Made by a program: the position numbers and the translations under genes | NCBI RefSeq assembly: GCF_002087335.1 | Contig: NZ_MWVJ01000005.1 | Span: 62,001 to 126,000 of the forward strand | Reading direction: 5' to 3' | From: Pseudophaeobacter leonis | GTDB lineage: Bacteria > Pseudomonadota > Alphaproteobacteria > Rhodobacterales > Rhodobacteraceae | Length of the DNA stretch: 64,000 nucleotides | Part shown: positions 4,849 to 54,651 of the stretch, piece after piece | Position numbering within the stretch: the first letter of the stretch is position 1 | How the letters are laid out: each line of letters begins with the position of its first letter | The notes under the pieces: model-generated | Seen by the model: the letters and a program-made list of their open reading frames with translations, nothing else | What the model was told of the DNA's origin: nothing | Database searches by the model: none

Positions 4849-5813
4849 TTAGCGCTCTTTCACATAGGGCTCACCACCGGCGCGGGGGGGGACGGCCTTG
4901 CCGACAAAACCCGCAAGGATAACCACCGTCAGGATATAGGGCAGGGCATCCATGGCCTGCACCGGAATGGTCAGTGAGCCCAGCTCGATGTTCTGGAACC
5001 GCAGGGCCACGGCCTGCAGCAGGCCAAAGAGCAGACAGGCTCCCATCGCCTGCCAGGGCCGCCATTTGGCAAAGATCAGCGCGGCCAGCGCGATAAAGCC
5101 ACGTCCGGCGGTCATGTCCTTGACAAAGCCGGCCTGCAGCGCTGTGGCGAGATAGGCGCCGGCAATGCCGCACAACACACCGCAGATCGCCACCGCCGCA
5201 TAGCGCAGGCCGATGACCGAAACCCCGGCGGTATCCACCGCTGCCGGGTTTTCACCAACGGCGCGCAGGCGCAGGCAAACCGGGTGCGATAGAGGATCCA
5301 CCAGGTGGCGGGCACCGCCAGAAAGGCAAAATAGACCAGAATGGAATGGCCCGAGATTAGCTCGGAATAGATGGGACCAAAGACGGGCACATCCTTGACG
5401 CTGTCGGCAAAGGGAAAGGTGATCGGGCCAAAGCGGCCACTGGTGAGCAGCGATGGCGTGCGTCCGCCCTGTTTGAACCAGTCCTGCGCAATCAGCACGG
5501 TCAGGCCTGCCGCCAAAAAGTTGATCGCCACGCCCGAAATGAGCTGGTTGCCACGAAAGGTGATAGAGGCCAGGCCATGCAGGCCGGACAGCACCAGTGA
5601 TGCGGCGATGCCAGCCAGCAGTCCCAGCCAGACATTGCCGGTTACAGCGGCAATCGCAGCCGAGAAAAACGCCGCCATCAGCATCTTGCCTTCCAGCCCG
5701 ATATCAAAGACCCCGGCGCGTTCGGAATACAAGCCCGCCAGACAGGCAAGCAGCAGTGGCGTTGCCAGCCGGACGGTGCTGTCCAGCACCTGAATCAAAG
5801 TAAGGAAATCCAT
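4849..5813 (-). pseudogene. ABC transporter permease, BmpA/NupQ-type (frameshifted)
   Basis: This is the second membrane subunit of a BMP-family importer. The frame is intact from the ATG at 5813 to about 5276. It then shifts, and the remaining half (GVSVIGLRYAAVAICGVLCG and onward) continues in another frame to a TAA at 4849. Restoring one G in the coding strand near 5276, turning TTTGCC into TTTGGCC, rebuilds a continuous protein of about 321 residues with the expected RTRFGLRLRAVGENP loop. The rest of the sequence is well conserved, so a sequencing error or a very recent mutation is more likely than old decay. The start overlaps the upstream permease stop (TGATG). Confidence 0.8.
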
Positions 5814-6907
5814 CAGTTGGCCTCCTTACGCAGGGCAAGGAAGATCTTCTCAAGCGGGATCCGCACCATATTGTCCAATGCACCGGTAAAGAGGATAACC
5901 AGCGCCTGGATCACCACGATGAGCTCGCGCGGGATCTTGGTCCAGAGCGCCAGTTCTGCGCCGCCCTGATACAAGAATCCAAACAGGATCGCGGCCACAA
6001 ACACGCCAAAGGGATGGTTGCGGCCCATCAGGGCAACAGCAATACCAATAAAGCCAGCGCCTTCGGTGGCGTTCAGCACCAGACGTTCGACCTCACCCAT
6101 CACATTGTTGATGGCCATCATCCCGGCCAATGCGCCCGAGATCATCATGGCGATCATGGTGATTTTTACCGGCGAAATCCCGGCATAACGCGCGCCGGGC
6201 TCTGATTTTCCAAAGGCGCGGATCTCAAAGCCCAGAGCGCTGCGCCAGATCCGCAGCCAGACCCCAAAACAGGCGGCAACCGCCACCAGCAGGCTGACAT
6301 TGGCCGGGGCCGATTTGGAAAAGGCGATGCCAAGCGGTGCCAGCAATTCGTGCAGCGAGGGCAGATGCACCGTGTCGCTGAACCGGGCCGAGGCCGGATC
6401 CATCGAGTTTGCAGGCTTCAGCACATTGACCAGCACATAGTTCAGCACAGCCGCGGCGATAAAGTTGAACATGATGGTTGTGATGACGATATGGCTGCCG
6501 CGTTTGGCCTGCAGATAGGCCGGAATAGCGGCCCAGGCGGCGCCAAAGAGCCCGGCCCCAAGGGTGGCAAAGAGCAGCGCCAGCGTCCAGTGCGGCCAGG
6601 GGATGAACAGGCAGATCATGGCAACACCCAGCCCCCCCAGCATGGCCTGACCTTCGCCACCGATATTGAACAGCCCGGCATGGGCCGCCACCGCCACCGC
6701 AAGGCCGGTGAACATGAAATTCGTGGCATAATACAGCGTATAGCCCCAGCCATAGCTGGATCCCAGGGCACCATCGACCATGAGTTTGACAGCCGCAATC
6801 GGGTCCTCGCCAATGGCAAGGATCACCAGAGCAGAGAGGCCAGCAGCGAGAACCAGGCTGATCAGGGGGATCAGCACAACATCGGCCCATTTAGGCATTT
6901 TTTCCAT
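5813..6907 (-). CDS. ABC transporter permease, BMP/nucleoside type
   Basis: This 364-residue multi-spanning protein is the first permease of the importer and belongs to the BPD_transp_2 (NupP/YufP-like) group. Recognisable features are the N-terminal membrane segment (VVLIPLISLVLAAGLSALVIL), the FNIGGEGQAMLGGLG motif near residue 81, and the conserved C-terminal stretch ATEGAGFIGIAVALMGRNHP. Related systems import purine nucleosides. The start ATG directly follows the ATPase stop codon; a second ATG three codons in (MPKWADV) is also possible. It pairs with the frameshifted permease downstream. Confidence 0.87.
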   Translation of the reverse strand: MEKMPKWADVVLIPLISLVLAAGLSALVILAIGEDPIAAVKLMVDGALGSSYGWGYTLYYATNFMFTGLAVAVAAHAGLFNIGGEGQAMLGGLGVAMICLFIPWPHWTLALLFATLGAGLFGAAWAAIPAYLQAKRGSHIVITTIMFNFIAAAVLNYVLVNVLKPANSMDPASARFSDTVHLPSLHELLAPLGIAFSKSAPANVSLLVAVAACFGVWLRIWRSALGFEIRAFGKSEPGARYAGISPVKITMIAMMISGALAGMMAINNVMGEVERLVLNATEGAGFIGIAVALMGRNHPFGVFVAAILFGFLYQGGAELALWTKIPRELIVVIQALVILFTGALDNMVRIPLEKIFLALRKEAN

Positions 6908-22335: not shown

Positions 22336-22404
22336 TCTATCTGTATACTGTATGCCAGCAGCCGTCCTGCAGCGGCCCTGTGGCAGGACCAACCCAATGA
22401 GGAC

Positions 22405-24028
<1,624 letters not shown>

Positions 24029-24045
24029 TGGAAAAGGAGCAGGGT

Positions 24046-26110
24046 ATGACAGGGTTCAACTCAATTCTGGTGGCCAACCGGGGCGAGATCGCGCTGCGCA
24101 TCATGGGCACGGCGCGCTCCATGGGGATCAGATCCATCGCCGTCTATACCGAGGCGGATGCCGCCAGCCCGCATGTGGCGTTTGCCGACCGGGCCATCTG
24201 TATCGGCACCGGGCCGGTCGCGGACAGCTATCTGGATGCGGGCAAAATCCTGGCCGCTGCCAAAGACTCCGGCGCTGAGGCCCTGCATCCGGGCTATGGG
24301 TTCTTGTCGGAAAATACCGATTTTGCTCAGGCCTGCCAGGATGCCGGATTGGTCTTTATTGGCCCCAGCGTTGAGGCGATTGCCCTGATGGGCAATAAGG
24401 CCGCCGCCAAGCGGCGCATGATCGCCGCCGGGGTGCCCTGTGTGCCCGGCTATGAGGGCGCGGATCAGTCGCCGGAAACACTGCAGGCGGAGGCGGACAA
24501 GATTGGCTATCCGGTGATGATCAAGGCGGCCGCAGGCGGCGGTGGACGCGGCATGCGTCTGGTTGCGGAGGCCGCAGGCTTTGGCGATGCGCTGGATCTT
24601 GCCAAAAGCGAAGCTATGGCGGCCTTTGGCTCGGATGAGATGATCCTGGAAAAGGCGGTGATGCGCCCGCGCCCCGTAGAGTTTCAGATCTTTGCAGATG
24701 CCACAGGACATACCATCCATCTGGGAGAGCGCGATTGTTCCGTGCAGCGCCGCCACCAGAAGGTGGTCGAAGAGGCCCCCTGTCCGGTGATGACACCAGA
24801 GCTGCGCGCCGAGATGGGCGCCGCCGCCGTTGAGGCCGCCCGTGCCATCAGCTACCTGGGCGCGGGCACGGTGGAGTTCCTGCTGCAAGAGAGCGGCGCG
24901 TTTTACTTTCTGGAGATGAACACCCGCCTGCAGGTGGAGCATCCGGTCACAGAGATGATCACCGGGCTTGATCTGGTGGCGCTGCAAATTCGTACCGCCA
25001 AAGGTGATGCGCTGGGGTTGGCGCAGCAAGATGTCGTGTTGCGCGGCCATGCCATCGAGGTGCGGCTTTATGCAGAAGATCCGGCGCAGGGTTTCCTGCC
25101 GCAATCCGGGCACATCAGCCGCTGGCAGCCGCCAAAGGGCGCGGGTATCCGGGTCGATGCAGGGATCAGAGCGGGGCAAGAGGTCTCGGCCTTTTATGAC
25201 CCGATGCTGGCCAAAATCATTGTTCATGGTGCCAGTCGCCGCGAGGCGCTTGAACGTCTGATTGCAGCACTTGGCGACACGGTCCTGTTTGGCCCCGCCT
25301 GCAACCGGGATTTCCTGATTGCGGTGCTGTCGCATGACTCCTTTGCCAGGGGCGCTGCGACCACCAGCTTTATTGCCGACCACTTTGACCCAGTGCCACC
25401 GCAGGTGGTATCGAGCGCGGATCTGGCGCTGGCGGCCTGCCTGATCTACCGCGCCGAACAGGCGGATCTGGCGGCACGGGCGCAAACCCCGGCAGAGCTA
25501 TTGGGCTGGTCCAGTCAGGGCCAGCTGCAGGCGCGCATGGTGTTGGACACGGGTGCCGAGCCCGCGACACTGCTGCTGAGCCAGACGCCTGAGGGTATGT
25601 CGGTGCAGGTTGGAGAGGCCCGTTACGGAGGGGCCTGTCACCATGTAACACAACAGGCAATGAGCCTGCGTTTGGATGGTGAGCGGGTTGATCTGCGTCA
25701 GCACCTGCTGCTTGACGACACCCTGTTCATGGCCACAGGCACAGATGCAGCGGCTGACACGGCTGCGCCCCGGAGCAACCCAAGGCACCACAGCGGGCGG
25801 CGGCGAGGTTCGCGCGCCGATGCATGGCAATCTGTTAGAGCTTTGCGTCAAAGCTGGCGACAGGGTGGCGGTTGGCAGCCGTCTGGCGGTGCTGGAGGCC
25901 ATGAAGATGCAGCACGAAATCCTAGCCGAGATGGCAGGCACAGTGTCTGAGGTCGCAGTGGTTGCGGCAAGCCAGGTCAAGGCCGGGGACCTGCTGGTGC
26001 TGATCACGGCGGAAGAAAACACCGGGCAAGACAGCAGCACTGGATCAGACAGCAGCACGGGGCCAGACAGCAGCGCCAAAAAGCCAGCAACAAACGAGGT
26101 GACATCATGA
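24046..26110 (+). pseudogene. Acyl-CoA carboxylase, biotin carboxylase/biotin carrier (alpha) subunit (frameshifted)
   Basis: Biotin carboxylase plus carrier in one chain, about 687 residues when repaired. The start is the ATG at 24046 behind AAGGAG. The N-terminal ATP-grasp carboxylase has ILVANRGEIALRIM, KAAAGGGGRGMRLV and EMNTRLQVEHPVTE. Near 25752 an extra base moves the frame, and the biotinyl domain (APMHGNL, VLEAMKMQHEI with the biotin lysine) reads on in the next frame. The C-terminus after the biotin domain is a TGxDSS tail encoded by three 18-bp repeats. The substrate could be geranyl-CoA, methylcrotonyl-CoA or a related compound; the AtuA gene upstream favours a terpenoid or branched chain. 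Confidence 0.82.
26021..26074 (+). repeat. Tandem array, three 18-bp units inside the carboxylase C-terminus
   Basis: Three units of the type ACTGGATCAGACAGCAGC encode a TGxDSS hexapeptide three times, followed by a short tail and the stop at 26110. They lie beyond the biotin domain and should be disordered. The array resembles the non-coding arrays at other gene ends in the window. Confidence 0.85.
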
Positions 26111-27241
26111 ATTCTGAGCTATGCAGGCGGTTGGGGATCGAGTTCCCGCTTTTTGCCTTTTCCCATTGTCGCGATGTGGGGCGGCTGTCACCAATGCCGG
26201 CGGCATGGGGATCTTTGGCGCCGCAATGATGTCGCCCGAAGAGTTGGAAGAGGAGCTTGCCTGGATTGATGCGCATGTGCATGGCAGGCCTTACGGTGTT
26301 GACCCCATCGTGCCCAATAAATTCGAGGCCAAGGGTGAGGGTATCGCGGATGCCCAGATCCTCGCGATGGTGCCAGAGGGGCATAAGAGCTTTGCCAATG
26401 AGGTGATGCAGGCGCATGGTGTAGAGCCCGGTGATCTGGAGCCACAGCGGGCCGATCGGTTGGTGTTTCGCGAAAACATCAGCGCTGAGGGCGCGCGGCG
26501 GGCTTTGGATGTGGCGTTTTCGCATCCTATTGCGCTGATTGCCAATGCGCTGGGCCTGCCGCCGCAGGATATGCTGGAGCGTGGCAAGGCACAGGGCGTT
26601 GCAGTGGCGGGGCTGGTGGGCACCGCCGAACATGCGCGGGCGCAGGTGGCTGCGGGCGTTGGTGTGATTGTTGCTGCCGGAGGTGAGGCTGGTGGCCATA
26701 CCGGCGAGATTTCGACCATGGTGTTGGTGCCTGAGGTGGTGCAGGCCATTGCGGGCTCGCAGGTGCGGTGCTGGCCGCGGGCGGCATTGCCCCCGGCGCA
26801 CAGATGGCGGCCGCCATGGCGATGGGGGCGGCGGGTGCCTGGTGTGGCTCGGTCTGGCTGACCACCGCCGAGGCCGAGACAACGTCGGTGGTCAAAGAAA
26901 AGATGCTGGCGGCCAGCAGTCGCGACACCGTGCGTTCACGTTCGCGCACTGGCAAACCTTCGCGCCAGCTGGTCAGTGCCTGGACCGAGGCCTGGGAGGC
27001 CAAAGCCGCGCCCAGACCGCTGCCGATGCCGCTGCAGACGCTGGTGTCAGAACCCGCGCTGCACCGCATTGATCAGATGTCGCAAAAGGGCCATGCAGGC
27101 GCGCAGGATCTGGCCACCTATTGGGTGGGGCAGGGGGTTGGCCTGATGAACCAGTCCATGTCTGCGGGGGCCGTGGTGCAGGACTTCAAGGAAGATTTTC
27201 TGAGGGGTTATGAACGCCTTCAAACCGCACTTGAGGGATAG
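26107..27241 (+). pseudogene. Nitronate monooxygenase / 2-nitropropane dioxygenase-like (two frameshifts)
   Basis: This FMN-dependent TIM-barrel enzyme family oxidises alkyl nitronates. The start ATG overlaps the carboxylase stop (ATGA). Two one-base losses break it: near 26179 in a run of four G, and near 26766 where GTGCCGGTG has become GTGCGGTG. Repaired, it is 378 residues: VTNAGGMGIFGAA, VLVPEVVQAIAGSQ, then VLAAGGIAPGAQMAAAMAMGA and the FMN phosphate region. It ends YERLQTALEG. It occurs last in the AtuA-carboxylase operon, where its substrate is unknown; many family members are misnamed and act on other flavin chemistry. Confidence 0.75.
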
Positions 27242-30946: not shown

Positions 30947-30977
30947 GTCTGACTCGTGAGTTTTATGTTTACATATT

Positions 30978-30996
30978 TATACTCTTACTTAGTATA
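30978..30996. promoter_or_regulatory. Palindrome in the divergent amidotransferase-P450 promoter region
   Basis: TATACT-N7-AGTATA is a perfect 6-bp-arm inverted repeat in the unusually AT-rich 78-bp gap between the divergent amidotransferase and P450 starts. It suits a dimeric repressor such as a GntR protein; the adjacent GntR gene is the obvious candidate, which is unproven. Confidence 0.5.
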
Positions 30997-31024
30997 CATA
31001 AAGAATGTATTCGGGAAGCCCATT

Positions 31025-32283
31025 ATGACCATCTGGACACCACAGGATGACGGCCACGCCGACCTTGCCAGTCATGACACCTTTGCCATGGGCGCGCCGC
31101 ACAATACCTTTGCCCGGCTGCGTCGCGACGACCCGCTGCACTGGACTGAATACGCTGGCGGTGAAAACTTTTGGTCGGTGACCCGCTATGACGACATCAT
31201 CCAGATGAACAAGAACACCGAGGTGTTCTCCTCGGCGCGTGGCATTCGCATGGAAGATCAGAGCTATGAGGAATATCTGGCGCGACGCACCTTTCAGGAG
31301 ACCGACCCGCCAGAGCATTCCAAGGTGCGCATGAAGCTGATGCGGGCGTTTTCTAAAACCAGCATGGCGCAGTATGAACAAGAGATCCGCGACATCTGTG
31401 GCGAGATTTTGGATTCGGTGCTGGAGCAGGGCAGCTTTGACGCCACCAAGGAAATCGCCAGGCAACTGCCGATGCGGATGCTGGGGCGGGTTGTGGGACT
31501 GCCGGAGGCGGATTTGCCCTGGCTGGTGGAAAAGGCGACGCACTGATCGCCAATACCGACCCGGATTTCACCTCGCATGTGATGGACAAACTGCAGACGG
31601 ATGAGTTCCGCCTGATGCCTTTTAACTCTCCTGCCGGTGCCGAACTATACCTCTATGCTAGGGATCTGATGGCCGACAAAGCCCGCAGAGGCGACACGGC
31701 TGGTGTGCTCAATATGATCTTAGAGCCGGCCAAGGATGGCTCGGAAATATCCGAGACGGAGTTTCGCAATTTCTTTTGCCTGCTGGTGGCGGCGGGCAAT
31801 GACACCACCCGCTATTCCATTGCCGCCGGCATTCAGGCGCTGTGTCATCAGCCGGAATTGTTGGCGCAGATGCAGGCAGGTGGTGCGGTCTGGGAGACGG
31901 CGGCGGATGAGATCATTCGCTGGGCGACGCCTGCGATCTATTTCCGCCGCACCGCGACGCGGGATGTCGAGATGCATGACAAGCTGATCCGGGCTGGCGA
32001 CAAGCTGCTCTATTGGTTTATTTCCGCCAACCGTGACGACAGTTACTTTGACGACGCTTTCCGGGTGGGCCTGATGCGCAACCCCAACCGGCATCTGGCC
32101 TTTGGCCAGTTTGGCCCGCATGTCGGCCTGGGCATGTGGCTGGCCCGGCTGGAAGTCACGGTGCTGTTTCAGGAGTTGGCCAAACGGATCAGCCATATCG
32201 AGGCCTCGGGGCCGCAGAAGTTTCTGCGCTCTAACTTTGTCGGCGGCATCAAAGAGCTGCCGGTGCGTGTCACCCCAAGATGA
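31025..32283 (+). pseudogene. Cytochrome P450 (frameshifted, heme cysteine replaced)
   Basis: This is a soluble bacterial class I P450 of about 419 residues when one G is restored near 31535. The start is MTIWTPQDDGHADL at 31025. The I-helix oxygen motif LLVAAGNDTTRYS and the K-helix EIIRW (ExxR) are present. The heme loop reads RHLAFGQFGPHVGLGMWLARLEV, whereas family members have FGxGxHxCxG. The thiolate cysteine is therefore a glycine (GGC where TGC is expected), and the preceding conserved Gly is Phe. With both changes the product should not bind heme normally. The redox partner is not in the window. Confidence 0.82.
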
Positions 32284-37538: not shown

Positions 37539-38085
37539 ATGACCACCGAACGAGAACGCCGCTTTGTCGGCCCCCGGCGCGGACAGCTGATTTTTGCTCT
37601 GGTCTTCCTCTCGGTGTCAGCGCTGCTTTTGGCCCTGATCGCAGAGCAGACCACCTGGGTGAACAAGACCAGGCTGTTCGCCCAGCCGCGGTTTTGGCCT
37701 GCCGTCAGCCTTGGAGGCATGGTGCTGTTGGGAGGGCTGCATTTTTACTTTCTGCCCTGGCGGCGCGCCTCGCGCTATGACCTCTGGGAGGCACGGCACT
37801 GGGGGCGCAGTCTGGAATATGCGCTCTGGTTCATGGCTTATGTTTTCCTGGTGCCGATTATTGGCTACCTGCCGGTCACGCTGCTGTTCGTGCCGCTGTT
37901 GGCGCGGCGCATGGGGTATCGCAGCCGCGCAATGATGGGCATCTGCCTGTGTTTCGCCCTGGCGGTTGTGGTGCTGTTTAAGGCGGTGCTGTCGGTGAAA
38001 ATTCCAGGTGCTATGCTCTATGAATACCCTGCCGGGCGCGCTGCGCAGCTTCTTTATATTATACTTTTGGCCCCGGGGTTTTTGA
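37539..38085 (+). pseudogene. Tripartite tricarboxylate transporter small membrane protein TctB (frameshifted)
   Basis: This is the small four-helix subunit of the transporter, 181 residues when repaired. The start MTTERERRFVGPRRGQ at 37539 leads into a first membrane helix (LIFALVFLSVSALLLALIAE). Near 38028 TACCTG has become TACCCTG. Removing one C gives YEYLPGALRSFFILYF and a TGA at 38083-38085 that overlaps the TctA ATG, the normal ending. In the sequence as given, the extra base instead runs TctB into TctA in one frame, which would look like a natural fusion. Confidence 0.75.
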
Positions 38086-39703
38086 TGGATCTTCTCCTCT
38101 CTGCACTCGATATCCTGATGCGTTGGGACGTGGCGCTGGCGCTGCTTGCGGGCTCGGTTGGCGGTGTGCTGATCGGGGCGATCCCCGGTGTCGGCCCTGC
38201 GGTGGCGATTGCCATCCTGCTGCCTGCGACCTTTTCCATGGATCCGATTGTGGCCCTCACGGTGCTGCTGGGGATTTACGGCTCCTCCATGTATGGCGGC
38301 GCCATCCCCGCCATTTTGATCAACACGCCCGGAACGGCGGTGAACGCGCTGACCACCTATGATGGCTATCCGATGACCGCGCGCGGCGAGCCGCGCCGCG
38401 CCCTGAGCCTCGCCTATTCCGCCAGCTTTTTTGGCGGCGTCTTTTCCGTCATCTGCCTCATCCTGTTTGCCCCGGTGCTGGCAAAGGTGGCGCCCATGTT
38501 TGGCAGCCGCGAGATCTTTTTAGCAGCGCTTTTGGGTCTCATCCTGGTGGTGGTGGCGCATCGTGGCCAGGCCCTGATTGCCGGAGCACTTGCCTGCTTT
38601 GGCATCTTTCTCAACTCCATCGGCATGGAGCCGGTGAAATATACCCAGCGCTATACCTTCGGGCAGGATTTTCTTGGCGGTGGTGTGAACCTCATCGTGG
38701 TTGTGCTGGGGCTTTTTGCCCTTAGTCAGGCCTTTGTGCTGCTGATGGACGAGGACGAAAAGGTGCATATCACCAAACTGCGCGGCGGTATGTTTCAGGG
38801 GCTGCGCGAACTGGCGCGTCATCCGCGTGTCACGACTGTTTCCGCCGGCTTTGGCGTGCTGATGGGTATGATACCCGGCGTGGGAGAGTTCACCGCCCAG
38901 TTCATGTCCTACACCTATGCGCAAAAGACCTCAAAACGGCCGCAGGATTTTGGCAATGGCTCCTCCGAGGGGCTGATTGCGGCGGAAACCGCCAATAACG
39001 CGGTGCCAGCTGCGGCCATGGTACCGCTTTTGGCGTGGGGATCCCGGGTGAGGCGCTGACCGCAATGATGCTGAGCGTGTTCTATGTGCACAACGTGGTG
39101 CCGGGGCCGGCCCTGTTTCAGAATGACATGGATTTCGTCGTAGCACTTTATCTGGCGCTGCTGATCCTTAATGTGCTGGTGCTGGTTTTTTTGCTCTTTG
39201 CCACCCGGTCGCTGGTGCAGGTGGTGAAAATCCCCAATCGCTTTCTTGGCGTCTGTATCCTGACCCTGAGCTTTGTTGGCGTCTACTCCCTGCGCAATTC
39301 CGCTACCGACTGTCTCATGGCTGCGGGCTTTGGCATCTTTGGGTTTATCCTCAAACGGCTGTCTTTACCGGCGGTGCCGATCATTCTTGGCATGGTGCTG
39401 GGCGGTATCATGGAGGGTAAGCTGCGCGCCGGTATGGCCCGGGTTAAAGAGCCCTGGGACTTTTTCAACCCACCCATATCATTCATCATTTTCACCATAA
39501 TTGTCTTGGTTCTTGCGACACATATTCTGCGCGTCTGGCGTGATCGCAAAGAACTGAAGGAGGCCGAATGGCAGAACAAGAGCTCATCAACCAGCTTCGG
39601 CAAGCTGATGTCGCGCCGCAAAAACTCTTTCTTGAAGGATCGTGGCAAAGAGGTTCGGGGACGCCACTCGAAGTTACTTCGCCGATTGAAGGGGCTGTTC
39701 TGA
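38085..39703 (+). pseudogene. Tripartite tricarboxylate transporter large permease TctA (frameshifted)
   Basis: This is the large permease subunit with about twelve membrane helices: start MDLLLSALDILMRWDVALAL, then GAIPGVGPAVAIAILLP, IYGSSMYGGAIPAILINTPGTA and MIPGVGEFTAQFMSY. A lost T near 39036 breaks PLLALGIPGEALTAMM, and the frame resumes to the C-terminus. A second loss just before 39566 probably removed the stop (GCC-TGA). The frame as given therefore runs on to 39703 inside the next gene with meaningless residues after KELKEAE. The repaired protein would be 494 residues, ending at 39567 directly before the aldehyde dehydrogenase ATG. Confidence 0.78.
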
Positions 39704-41051
39704 CCACGCTTGAAGGCGCCTCTGCAACAGATGTTGAACGCGCTGTCGCCTCGGCGCGGCGGGCCTATGCCGATGGCCGCTGGGCGGCACAGTCCCCCGC
39801 CGCACGTAAAAAGGTGCTGTACCGCATTGCTGATCGGATTGAGGCCGAGGCAGTCGAGCTTGCGGTGCTGGGTGTGCGCGACAATGGCACGGAATTCAAC
39901 ATGGCCCTGAAGGCCGAGCCGGGCTCGGCGGCCGGAACCTTTCGCTATTATGCCGAGGCGCTGGACAAGGTGGCCGGAGAAGTGGCGCCGACGCAGGCAG
40001 ATGTGCTGGGGCTGGTGCATCGCACGCCGGTGGGCGTGGTTGGTGCCATTGTGCCCTGGAGCTTCCCGCTGATGATTGGCGCGGAAGCCTGGCACCGGCG
40101 CTGGCCATGGGCAATTCCGTGGTGCTGAAGCCAGCCGAGACCGCCTCGCTGACGCTGTTGCGTCTGGCGGAGATCTGCGTCGAATGTGGCCTGCCGGATG
40201 GTGTGTTCAACGTGGTGACCGGCAGTGGCGCTGAAACCGGCGCGGCGCTGGCCATGTCGATGGGGGTTGATGTGCTCACCTTCACCGGATCAGGTGGCAC
40301 CGGGCGCAAACTTCTGGAGGCTTCGGCGCGCTCGAACCTCAAACGGTGCTACCTTGAGCTGGGAGGGAAGTCGCCCAATATCGTTTTTGCCGACACGCCG
40401 GACCTTAAGAAAGCCGCCAAGGTCTCGGCCAGGGGGATCTTTCGCAACTCTGGCCAGGTCTGCGTGGCGGGCGCGCGTCTGCTGGTTGAGGCCTCGGTAC
40501 ATGATGAGTTTGTCGCCCTGCTGAAATGCGAGGCTGAGGCCCTGACGGTGGGCGATCCGCTGGATCTGGGCAGCCAGATCGGTGCGGTGAATTCCGAGGA
40601 TCAGCTCAGGCGCAATCTGTCGTTTATGGACATGGCCCGCGCCGAAGGAGGCCAGGTCATCACTGGTGGCGCCCGTATCCTGCAGGAAACAGGCGGCAGC
40701 TATACGGCCCCGACCATTGTGACCCATGTGGCCCGCGATCATGCCCTGTTCCAGCGCGAGGTTTTTGGCCCCGTGCTGTCGGTCACAAAATTTGAGAGCG
40801 AGGCCGAGGCGCTTAGCCTGGCCAATGCCACTGATTTTGGCCTTGCCGCCGGGGTCTGGACCGCGGATCTGTCGCGGGCGCATCGTATGTTTGCGGGCAT
40901 TCGAGCGGGTGTTCTGCCTGTGAACACCTACGGTGGCGCCGACAATACGGTGCCACTGGGCGGGGTTGGTCAGTCAGGCAATGGGCATGACAAATCGCTG
41001 CATGCTTTGGACAAATATGTCGATCTGAAAACGGCCTGGATTCAGCTGTGA
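39568..41051 (+). pseudogene. NAD-dependent aldehyde dehydrogenase (frameshifted)
   Basis: This aldehyde dehydrogenase superfamily enzyme oxidises an aldehyde to the acid. It starts MAEQELINQLRQADVAPQ at 39568 with AAGGAGG upstream. After VGAIVPWSFPLMIGA, near 40085, a net one-base loss shifts the frame; the second half begins AMGNSVVLKPAETASLT. Repaired length is 494 residues. The catalytic pair is present: Glu in YLELGGKSPNIVF and Cys in SGQVCVAGARLL. Betaine-aldehyde-like members are the closest type from memory, but the substrate is not set by sequence alone. It sits in the tct operon, so it may act on the imported compound's breakdown product. Confidence 0.82.
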
Positions 41052-51439: not shown

Positions 51440-53375
51440 CTAGAAGTCCTGCCACTTGCCCTCACCGCTGGCAGCAGTGGTGCTGGTCTGGGATTGCGGC
51501 GCGTCTCCCCAATCCAGATAGTCTTGGGTGACAGGCTCTGGGGCGGCGGGTTTTTTAGCAGATGGTGACAAAGACACCTTGGAGCCGCCCTGAATTTTGA
51601 ACCCGGCCACCACCTCGGTGAGTTTGACCGCGTCGGCTTTTAGCAGATAGCCTGCGGCGGTGGATTGCTCGACCATCGCGGCGTTCTGCTGGGTCACCTG
51701 GCCAGCTGGGTGACGCCGATATTGATTTCTGCCAGGCCGGTAGATTGCTCCACAGCGCCTTCGGTAATGTCAGAGACCAGTTCGGAGATCTCGTTGACCC
51801 GCCCGACGATAGTGTTGAGCGCCTCGCCTGCCTTGCCAACCAGATCAACGCCCCGCCCAACCTGTTCAGCGCTGGCGTCGATCAGCACCTTGATCTCCAT
51901 TGCAGCCTCAGATGAGCGTTTCGCAAGGCCGCGGACTTCGGCGGCGACCACGGCAAAGCCACGGCCCGCTTCACCGGCGCGCGCGGCTTCGACACCGGCA
52001 TTCAGGGCCAGCAGGTTGGTCTGAAAGGCGATGTCGTCAATCACAGTGATGATTTGCCCGATATGGCTGGAAGAGTTCGAGATTTCAGTCATGGCAGAGA
52101 CGGCGTTCTGCACCACTTCCTCACTGCTTTTTGCCTCTTGTTTGGCCTCGTCCATGGTGCTTTCGACGCTGCGGGCACCATCGGCGGCGGCTTTGACCGA
52201 CACGGTCAGCTGATCCAGCGCCGCTGCTGTCTGTTCCAGTGTGGCGGCCTGACTCTCGGTGCGATGCGACAGATCATCCGAGGCCTGGCTGATCTCTGCC
52301 GCACCGTTGCTGATAGAGCCGGAGGCCTCAATGACCTGGGATACCGTGCCGGAGAGCGTATCGATTGTCAGGTTGAAGTTCTGCCGTAGTTTTTCATGCG
52401 ACCCGGAGAATTCGGCGTCGATGTGCTGGGAGAAATCGCCGCGTGACAGCCTGACCAAACCCGAGCTGAGATGCTGAACAACGTCATGCTGTTCCTGCTG
52501 CAGAGCGGCGCGGCGGTCTTCGCCCTCGCGGGCCTGCAGCAGATCCTGTTGCAGCGTCACCAGAGCTTTGCCGATTTTGCCGATCTCGTCGCCGCGCGTT
52601 GCGGCCCGGATCTCGGTATTCAGTTCGCCCTTTGAAACAGCCGCAATATCGGTGCAGATGCGATCAATGGGGCGGGTGACAGAACGGGCGACTGCGACGG
52701 CGACGACAAGCAGGAGGCTGCCTGCGAGGCCAAAGGCGATCAGGATGTTACGGGACAAAGCCTGGGTGCCCGCAAGGACAGTGTCGACATTGCGCCGCAC
52801 CTCAATAACGCCGCGCAGATCTCCCAGTTGCCAGTCCGTCTTGGGCGATGCAGCATGCGTGTTGTGACAGGGACGCAAACCTCAGAGGTCATGTGATCAC
52901 CTATGGCGACCCGCAGGACGGTGCTGCCATCAATGGTTTCGGTCTGCTGGAATGTAGCGTTGGGATCCTTGGACAGCGCCTCCCAGGCCTCTGTCATAAA
53001 GGGGTCGGTGGGGCGCTCGGCGCGATTGTCAAAGGGGAAGGGGCTGTAGAGCGCCAGACTGGTTTGCGCGCCGGTCAGAAGCGCGCTGACGTCATGGACC
53101 AGAGTGGCAGGCAGGGGAATCACGCTGGGGTCGTCTTGATGCGCGATGCCTGCGGACAGCCCAGCTGCGCCGTTCACATCGCGGATCACATGTTTGGTGT
53201 AGTAGCCACGGATGACCTTGATCTGGTTTGCCGTCTGGGCCGCCGCCTCGGTTGCAGCAACAATGGCATTGTCCCGCAGGGCCCCGGGCAGAAACAGCCC
53301 AGCCAGCAGCAGGCTCAAACACAGACAGAGGGGAATTGGCATCGCCAATTTGAACAGAAGAGAATTTTTATTCAC
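51440..53375 (-). pseudogene. Methyl-accepting chemotaxis protein with periplasmic CxxCH domain (two frameshifts)
   Basis: This membrane chemoreceptor has 645 residues after repair. It has an N-terminal membrane helix (LAMPIPLCLCLSLLLAGLFLPG), then a periplasmic domain of the Tll0287/DUF3365 style. That domain would contain VCVPCHNTH, a CxxCH heme c motif, once a C lost near 52871 is restored. A second membrane helix ([20 protein letters not shown]), HAMP segments and the signalling hairpin ([20 protein letters not shown]) follow. A second loss near 51703 separates GVTQL from [15 protein letters not shown]. The domain suggests redox or gas sensing. AT-rich sequence around 53495-53525 probably holds its promoter. 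Confidence 0.85.
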
Positions 53376-53621
53376 TTAAACGGACCTTCTATACACCCGA
53401 GCGCTACTGCTCGGACCATCTGCCTGTGGGCAGGCCCGAGCATGATTGATCCTGCTCTGATGAGGCAAAACGACAGGGTCAGAGTGACTTGATTCGGTAA
53501 ATTTATTTTTAAATTGAAATATCTTCTTTGAGTTCAACCTGGTCTCATGCTGCGATCTGGGGGGTGTGTCGGGGGCGGATAACGCGCGAAAGGGCAGGTA
53601 AAAACGGCAGGCAATGTGGCA

Positions 53622-53775: not shown

Positions 53776-54466
53776 TTATGCCCAATGACCCTGCGCGGCG
53801 TCGCGGATTTTGCGCATGTTTTCGCCGTAAACCTCAGGGGTCGACACCGACCCGCCTTTGAACACGGCAGAGCCAGCTACCAACACGTCAGCGCCGGCCT
53901 CAACCACCAGCGGTGCGGTTTTGGGATCAACCCCGCCATCAATCTCAATTATGCACGGGCCGGTCGCCAATCATCTGACGCAGCTGGCGTACCTTTGCGG
54001 TCATATCGATGAACTTTTGGCCGCCAAAACCGGGGTTTACCGTCATCACGCAGACCAGGTCCGTGAGATCCAGAAGATGCGCGACCGCCTCGGCCGGGGT
54101 GCCGGGGTTGAGGGCAACACCCGCCTTCATCCCAGCCGCGCGGATCGCCTGCAGGGTACGGTGAATATGTGGACCAGCCTCGATATGGGCCGTGAGCACA
54201 TCGGCGCCAGCATCTGCATAGGCGTCGATATAGGCATCCACCGGAGAGATCATCAGGTGCACATCCATCACGGTTTTGACGTGGGGGCGAAAGGCTTTGA
54301 CGGCCTGCGGGCCAAAGGTGAGGTTGGGCACAAAGTGACCATCCATGACATCCACATGCACCCAGTCGGCACCCTGGGCCTCGATGGCCTGGATTTCCTG
54401 GCCAAAGTTGGCGAAATCAGCTGACAGGATGGAGGGGGCGATCTTGATCTTGCGGTCAAAGGACAT
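53776..54466 (-). pseudogene. rpe: Ribulose-phosphate 3-epimerase (frameshifted)
   Basis: This TIM-barrel epimerase interconverts ribulose 5-phosphate and xylulose 5-phosphate. The start MSFDRKIKIAPSILSADF at 54466 has AAGGAAG upstream. Metal and catalytic blocks are VHVDVMDGHFVPNLTFG and DLVCVMTVNPGFGGQKFI. Near 53950 an extra A (CATAATTGAG for CATATTGAG) breaks the frame just before [13 protein letters not shown], and the last third reads in another frame. Repaired length is 229 residues. Because rpe is normally a core metabolic gene, the break is probably a consensus error. Confidence 0.87.
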
Positions 54467-54651
54467 AGGGCTGCTTCCTTGTGGAAAGGCAAAAGAGGGG
54501 CGTTCAGCCGCCATATAGCCTCTTGCCGACGATATGCACAGGGGCAGTTTGTGGGCCACAAAGCCGCAGAGCTTTACAAAACCTTCATGGCTTCGACACA
54601 AATCGTTTGATTGGCCAGCGTAGTCAGTCCCCGAAACGAAGGGGACCGATT

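Follow-up and report, generated by a model that had tools for sequence, protein, structure and literature searches.

A chemoreceptor gene with a predicted periplasmic heme c site

A methyl-accepting chemotaxis protein (MCP) gene lies on the minus strand, from 53375 to 51440, of the 64,000-nucleotide stretch of Pseudophaeobacter leonis DNA that we analysed (the window). We consider it very likely that this gene encodes a membrane-spanning chemoreceptor that carries one covalent c-type heme at a C-V-x-C-H motif in its periplasmic single-Cache domain, which is of the sCache_heme type, and that the frame breaks interrupting the gene are assembly errors. The sequence-only reading of this DNA had proposed a chemoreceptor with a likely heme c site; this is supported by the domains and MCP output of intact orthologues, by a structural model whose nearest match, tied with others, is Tll0287, and by the literature on the family.

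The gene starts with GTG at 53375, as do the seven orthologues from the genus whose first codon lies inside the alignment, and ends with a stop codon at 51442–51440. Two frame breaks divide it into three open pieces, and orthologues of all five relatives that we compared span it in three frames. The encoded order is a transmembrane helix, a periplasmic Tll0287-like domain, a second transmembrane helix, a HAMP domain and an MCP domain. Translation of the first piece gives a hydrophobic (transmembrane) segment, KLAMPIPLCLCLSLLLAGLFLP, recognised by eye at 53286–53351, followed by most of the periplasmic domain, and stays in sense until ...DHMTSEVCV. The second piece, in the next frame, encodes the second hydrophobic (transmembrane) segment (52684–52749, also by eye), a HAMP domain (PF00672; 52537–52692, E 1.7e-10), a second HAMP-like stretch (PF18947; 52354–52467, E 4.3e-10) and most of the MCP signalling domain (PF00015; 51700–52155, E 7.3e-50), in which the conserved MCP hairpin tip is readable. 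The third piece encodes the end of the protein, with KWQDF as its last residues (51443–51457). This W-x-x-F ending resembles what we take to be the tether for the adaptation enzymes CheR and CheB in other receptors. KWQDF is common to 10 of 10 genus orthologues, and a W-x-x-F ending occurs in 11 of 30 more widely sampled relatives that have the MCP tip pattern.

The periplasmic domain (PF11845, sCache_heme; 52795–53270) was detected as a profile match that is split by the first frame break. The two matches are complementary, with profile positions 3–105 in the first piece and 107–142 in the second. Taken singly, they score 16.1 and 17.4 bits, below the curated cut-off of 24.1 bits, whereas intact orthologues score 46.1–64.3 bits. 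The same division was seen with a profile built from the genus orthologues, positions 1–172 of which are covered by the first piece and positions 170–210 by the second. PF11845, HAMP and MCPsignal are all whole in both orthologues that we scanned. Fusion of the sensor domain to hydrophobic segments (called by eye), HAMP and MCPsignal is a feature of signalling-type proteins, and it is present in this chemoreceptor.

The predicted heme c attachment motif is divided by a frame break

The predicted heme c attachment motif, C-V-x-C-H, occupies 52864–52877 on the minus strand, with the first Cys codon at 52877–52875, the second at 52869–52867 and the His codon at 52866–52864, and is found at the same place in all 10 genus orthologues. 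Frame break 1 (52869–52872) lies inside the motif, as had been claimed, such that C-V is read in one frame and C-H-N-T-H in the next. Hence, the earlier claim that the Tll0287/DUF3365-like region of the periplasmic domain contains CxxCH is borne out, with both Cys residues and the His found across two frames. The specific reading CVPCHNTH holds for C-V and for C-H-N-T-H; by contrast, its P was a guess that depends on how the gap is closed. The residue ahead of the second Cys falls inside the break and is unreadable in this sequence, and in the genus orthologues it is A or S. The presence of CxxCH is independent of that residue. Similarly, the single break that had been placed near 52871 was located correctly, but a second break, at 51700–51703, had been missed. 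Breaks are scattered over the window, so the position of this one within the motif appears to be a coincidence.

The sequence-only reading had staked the heme site on homologues keeping CxxCH, and they do: sequence comparison indicates that its occurrence at this place is not due to chance, with the motif present in each of the 10 intact orthologues from the genus and in all 80 of the named relatives that we kept.

Distribution in the genus and family

An intact orthologue is present in 10 of the 11 other genomes of the genus, and all 10 have CV[A/S]CHN. We did not find the receptor in the eleventh genome, G004, where the sole match to the sensor profile is weak (4.8e-4) and falls within a 723-aa frame of a different contig. 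The receptor's usual neighbours, the epimerase-like gene and the transport genes, are still adjacent to each other in G004, and the 12 kb that we read there contains no receptor-like frame of at least 150 aa. The receptor may have been lost or replaced in G004. At its expected place (G004:C21:27000-39000, locus L143), a gene that is SPOR-like by eye adjoins the epimerase-like gene.

A pattern scan of named genomes identified 296 relatives, of which we kept the best 80; eight of these are members of the genus that also enter the genus count. Named genus members among the relatives include Pseudophaeobacter, Phaeobacter sp. and Roseobacter sp. MED193. The peptide patterns used for the search do not include CxxCH; however, one of the two falls just after the motif, which biases the sample somewhat in favour of the family's typical form. 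The MCP tip pattern was seen in at least 30 of the 80 loci, which is a lower bound because some loci are truncated, and output-domain labels were assigned from simple patterns.

In a family-wide draw of 295 genomes, PF11845 matched at E ≤0.001 in 42, with 41 above the cut-off; most of these matches are to other protein types, and P. leonis itself enters this count through a cyclase. No match to PF11845 was found in 14 control genomes. On the profile matches, the domain is patchy in the family and the receptor is near-constant in the genus.

The modelled domain has a Cache fold

Using 30 homologues, we modelled the periplasmic domain of L018, an intact orthologue, with AlphaFold2 and obtained a mean pLDDT of 92.1. 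Residues 140–144 of the model, which form the motif, lie in a helix (138–146) between strands 124–134 and 160–169. The same placement, on a helix set between strands, is described for sCache_heme domains in a 2026 preprint (PMC12889525). Comparison of the model with known structures using VIA-align placed Tll0287 (5b82) first, with a Z-score of 10.8 and an rmsd of 3.7 over 141 residues; heme-free Cache domains came next at Z 10.2, which amounts to a tie with Tll0287, and neither 3b42 nor 3b47, the heme-c chemoreceptor structures from Geobacter sulfurreducens, was among the 50 matches listed. With Foldseek, the first match was to an integrative model of WalK, and matches were found to GSU0935 (3b42; E 1.5e-4, TM-score 0.33–0.45) and Tll0287 (5b82; E 1.7e-3, TM-score 0.51–0.55), with GSU0582 (3b47) absent from the matches listed for the L018 model, an absence that carries no weight. 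This modest fold evidence points to a Cache domain, and it is the motif and the family that support the heme reading.

Profile-profile comparison of the conserved C-terminal part of the domain with stand-alone Tll0287-type proteins gave a probability of 94 and an E-value of 1.2e-7 over 53 aligned columns. A sequence search of the PDB with two receptor profiles matched no heme-binding chains; matches to 7mcc and 7smj, which are AI-designed TIM barrels, were rejected as due to chance, with i-Evalues of at least 17 for the separate stretches. When stand-alone relatives were compared with 5b82 by sequence, L098 matched with an E-value of 2.4e-9 and L092 matched weakly (E 0.46).

Frame breaks are frequent in this assembly

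We compared the genes of the window with open frames in the syntenic stretches of five relatives. An internal frame change was detected in 9 of 44 comparable genes, with each of the nine supported by at least two relatives. Applying the same test with the relatives as subjects yielded 1 of 50, 0 of 44, 0 of 41, 0 of 43 and 1 of 57 genes, which is 2 of 235 overall. Genes were represented throughout, in the window as in the controls, by the relatives' stop-to-stop open frames, and a frame was counted only if at least two relatives saw it, with a best identity of at least 70% and a coverage of at least 80%. The broken genes lie at 4852–5846, 22387–24025, 23932–26035, 26151–27238, 30959–32280, 38028–39700, 38813–41048, 51443–53408 (the receptor) and 53779–54550. 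Based on the difference between the window and the relatives, we conclude that sequence errors of the assembly are the most likely cause of both breaks in the receptor, the one within the motif and the one in the MCP domain. The completeness of the assembly is 92.2%, compared with 99–100% for 9 of the 11 relatives in the genus.

Two breaks in a single 1.9 kb gene could instead mean that real frameshifts have inactivated the receptor in this strain, leaving a genuine pseudogene. We judge this unlikely on the break statistics, since so large a share of the window's genes is broken, including the gene directly upstream of the receptor, which by eye is ribulose-phosphate epimerase-like. Moreover, elsewhere in the same genome (G000:C50:54377-55331) the CcmF match is divided between two frames at profile positions 264–267, probably through another sequence error. 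Substitution patterns also argue against decay, being constrained wherever they could be estimated: relative to the five relatives, dN/dS was 0.08–0.21 for the first piece and 0.06–0.10 for the second, and 0.10–0.19 for the third piece in three comparisons, with the other two not estimable. These values are rough, because synonymous distance exceeded 1, and was thus near saturation, in 12 of 13 estimates, and a very recent loss, which would be invisible to dN/dS, is compatible with them. The apparent constraint on all pieces agrees with the breaks being sequence errors. Overall, the frame breaks in this assembly are no evidence of gene decay and should not be read as biology.

Proposed mechanism and nature of the stimulus

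We infer that heme would be attached covalently to the motif in the periplasm by the Ccm system. A small ligand, most likely nitric oxide (NO), would then bind the heme iron, or the redox or coordination state of the heme would change. Either event would be expected to alter the Cache dimer, and the change would pass through the second transmembrane helix to HAMP and on to the MCP domain, which would control CheA and hence swimming. The P. leonis genome has the CcmF match and a CheA-type dimerisation domain (PF02895); among the 14 control genomes, 5 have a match to CcmF_C and 7 to PF02895. Redox or gas sensing coupled to chemotaxis, which the sequence-only reading had taken the motif to imply, is the published expectation for receptors of this class, and would extend to this one by analogy.

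No Cys outside the motif was found in any of 30 aligned receptor-type domains, a subset of the 80 relatives that we chose ourselves, and in the first piece of the P. leonis gene, up to the break, Cys occurs only in the first hydrophobic segment and in the motif. The axial Cys of redox-type members is thus missing from the receptor-type domains aligned here, and its absence favours ligand sensing. The sCache_heme preprint reports tight NO binding, slow NO release and no stable complex with oxygen for a membrane-anchored member that lacks the axial Cys, which the receptor resembles in this respect, and redox-protein behaviour for a stand-alone member whose heme is ligated by Cys (PMC12889525); these are the only two proteins characterised in that text, which makes it thin either way on the stimulus. 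A six-coordinate heme of redox type could also arise if a different conserved residue, such as His, Met or Tyr, served as distal ligand.

By analogy with these proteins, NO or a similar small ligand is favoured as the stimulus, with redox as a serious rival. That the same heme-c receptor responds to redox potential, through a change in oxidation state accompanied by a ligand switch, is a reading to which we give appreciable weight, though less than an even chance. A review of the Geobacter receptors proposes that GSU0582 and GSU0935 sense redox through a redox-linked switch of spin state and ligand, with Met60 as the distal ligand in GSU0935 (PMC8396549), and neither nirK nor nirS was found above cut-off in the P. 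leonis genome. However, according to the same text these two sensors also bind NO and CO, and it was a signalling-type protein that showed the properties of an NO sensor among the two tested in the preprint (PMC12889525). We consider it far less probable that the Cache domain binds an ordinary ligand and that its CxxCH has arisen by chance or serves something other than heme, such as a metal site. Heme attachment is a prediction here, and the fold is common to ligand-binding Cache domains; however, C..CH is kept throughout the 80 relatives, and the two sources report CxxCH in 99% of sCache_heme members (PMC12889525) and covalent heme in characterised members of the family (PMC12889525, PMC8396549).

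For NO sensing, the source of NO was considered through the two nitrite reductase profiles. A match to NirK (TIGR02376) above cut-off is present in 3 of 12 genus genomes, one of which is G004, the genome in which the receptor was not found; thus, only 2 of the 11 receptor-bearing genomes have it. NirS (PF02239) was above cut-off in none of the 12. The P. leonis genome itself has only a weak sub-cut-off match to each, and a link between the receptor and the organism's own denitrification was rejected as unsupported. Among the 14 control genomes, TIGR02376 matched in 7 (1 above cut-off) and PF02239 in 2 (1 above cut-off). With NirK above cut-off in so few of the genus genomes and NirS in none, gene content does not point to NO of the bacteria's own making as a general stimulus. 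A tentative and somewhat doubtful extension is that the protein is an NO chemotaxis receptor with periplasmic heme c, by which these marine bacteria would approach or avoid NO that they do not make themselves. If so, NO from other organisms, for example algae or neighbouring denitrifiers, would be a cue for nearly the whole genus.

Relation to known heme-c sensors

The preprint defines PF11845 as sCache_heme and lists MCPs among its fusions (PMC12889525). The receptor shares with that family the domain match, CxxCH at the same place, a Cache-type fold and the MCP fusion; we found no feature that separates it, and the part of the preprint used here describes no member from the genus. Periplasmic heme-c domain, HAMP and MCP follow one another in GSU0582 and GSU0935, as described in the Geobacter review (PMC8396549), in the same order as in the receptor. 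The structures of both have been solved and 3b42 is a Foldseek match to the model, but identity to the receptor is 16–17% in the Foldseek alignments. Tll0287 from Thermosynechococcus belongs to the same Pfam family and is the first, tied, VIA-align match; by contrast, it is a stand-alone protein with an axial Cys and Cys/His ligation. DcrA of Desulfovibrio vulgaris, which we set beside the receptor by description only, is likewise a chemoreceptor with a periplasmic c-type heme according to that review (PMC8396549), and differs in being described with an additional cytoplasmic PAS domain.

The family, its heme and the link to chemoreceptors have therefore already been described, and the receptor is an ordinary additional member that changes the field little. 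A limited literature search (Roseobacter and Phaeobacter, with chemoreceptor or heme) found no prior paper on the receptor of this genus. The proposal of NO sensing by sCache_heme chemoreceptors could be addressed with this conserved receptor in a motile strain of the genus, which is marine and of roseobacter type.

Other Tll0287-type proteins

Besides the receptor, the P. leonis genome encodes a membrane adenylate/guanylate cyclase of the Tll0287 type (L001:1276-2952, contig C94). Its motif reads GVSCHN, with the first Cys absent, which may reflect an error in the sequence or a heme site with a single Cys; in other genera of the family, all 7 relatives with the cyclase pattern have CxxCH.

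Among the small stand-alone proteins of the family, nine (L099, L101, L105, L107, L108, L109, L111, L113 and L116) have the motif C..CHN.HKD[ST]P and a common DVMGGVVIRIP ending. These look like a subgroup apart from the proteins with the AI.VCN pattern (L098, L100, L106, L112 and L114).
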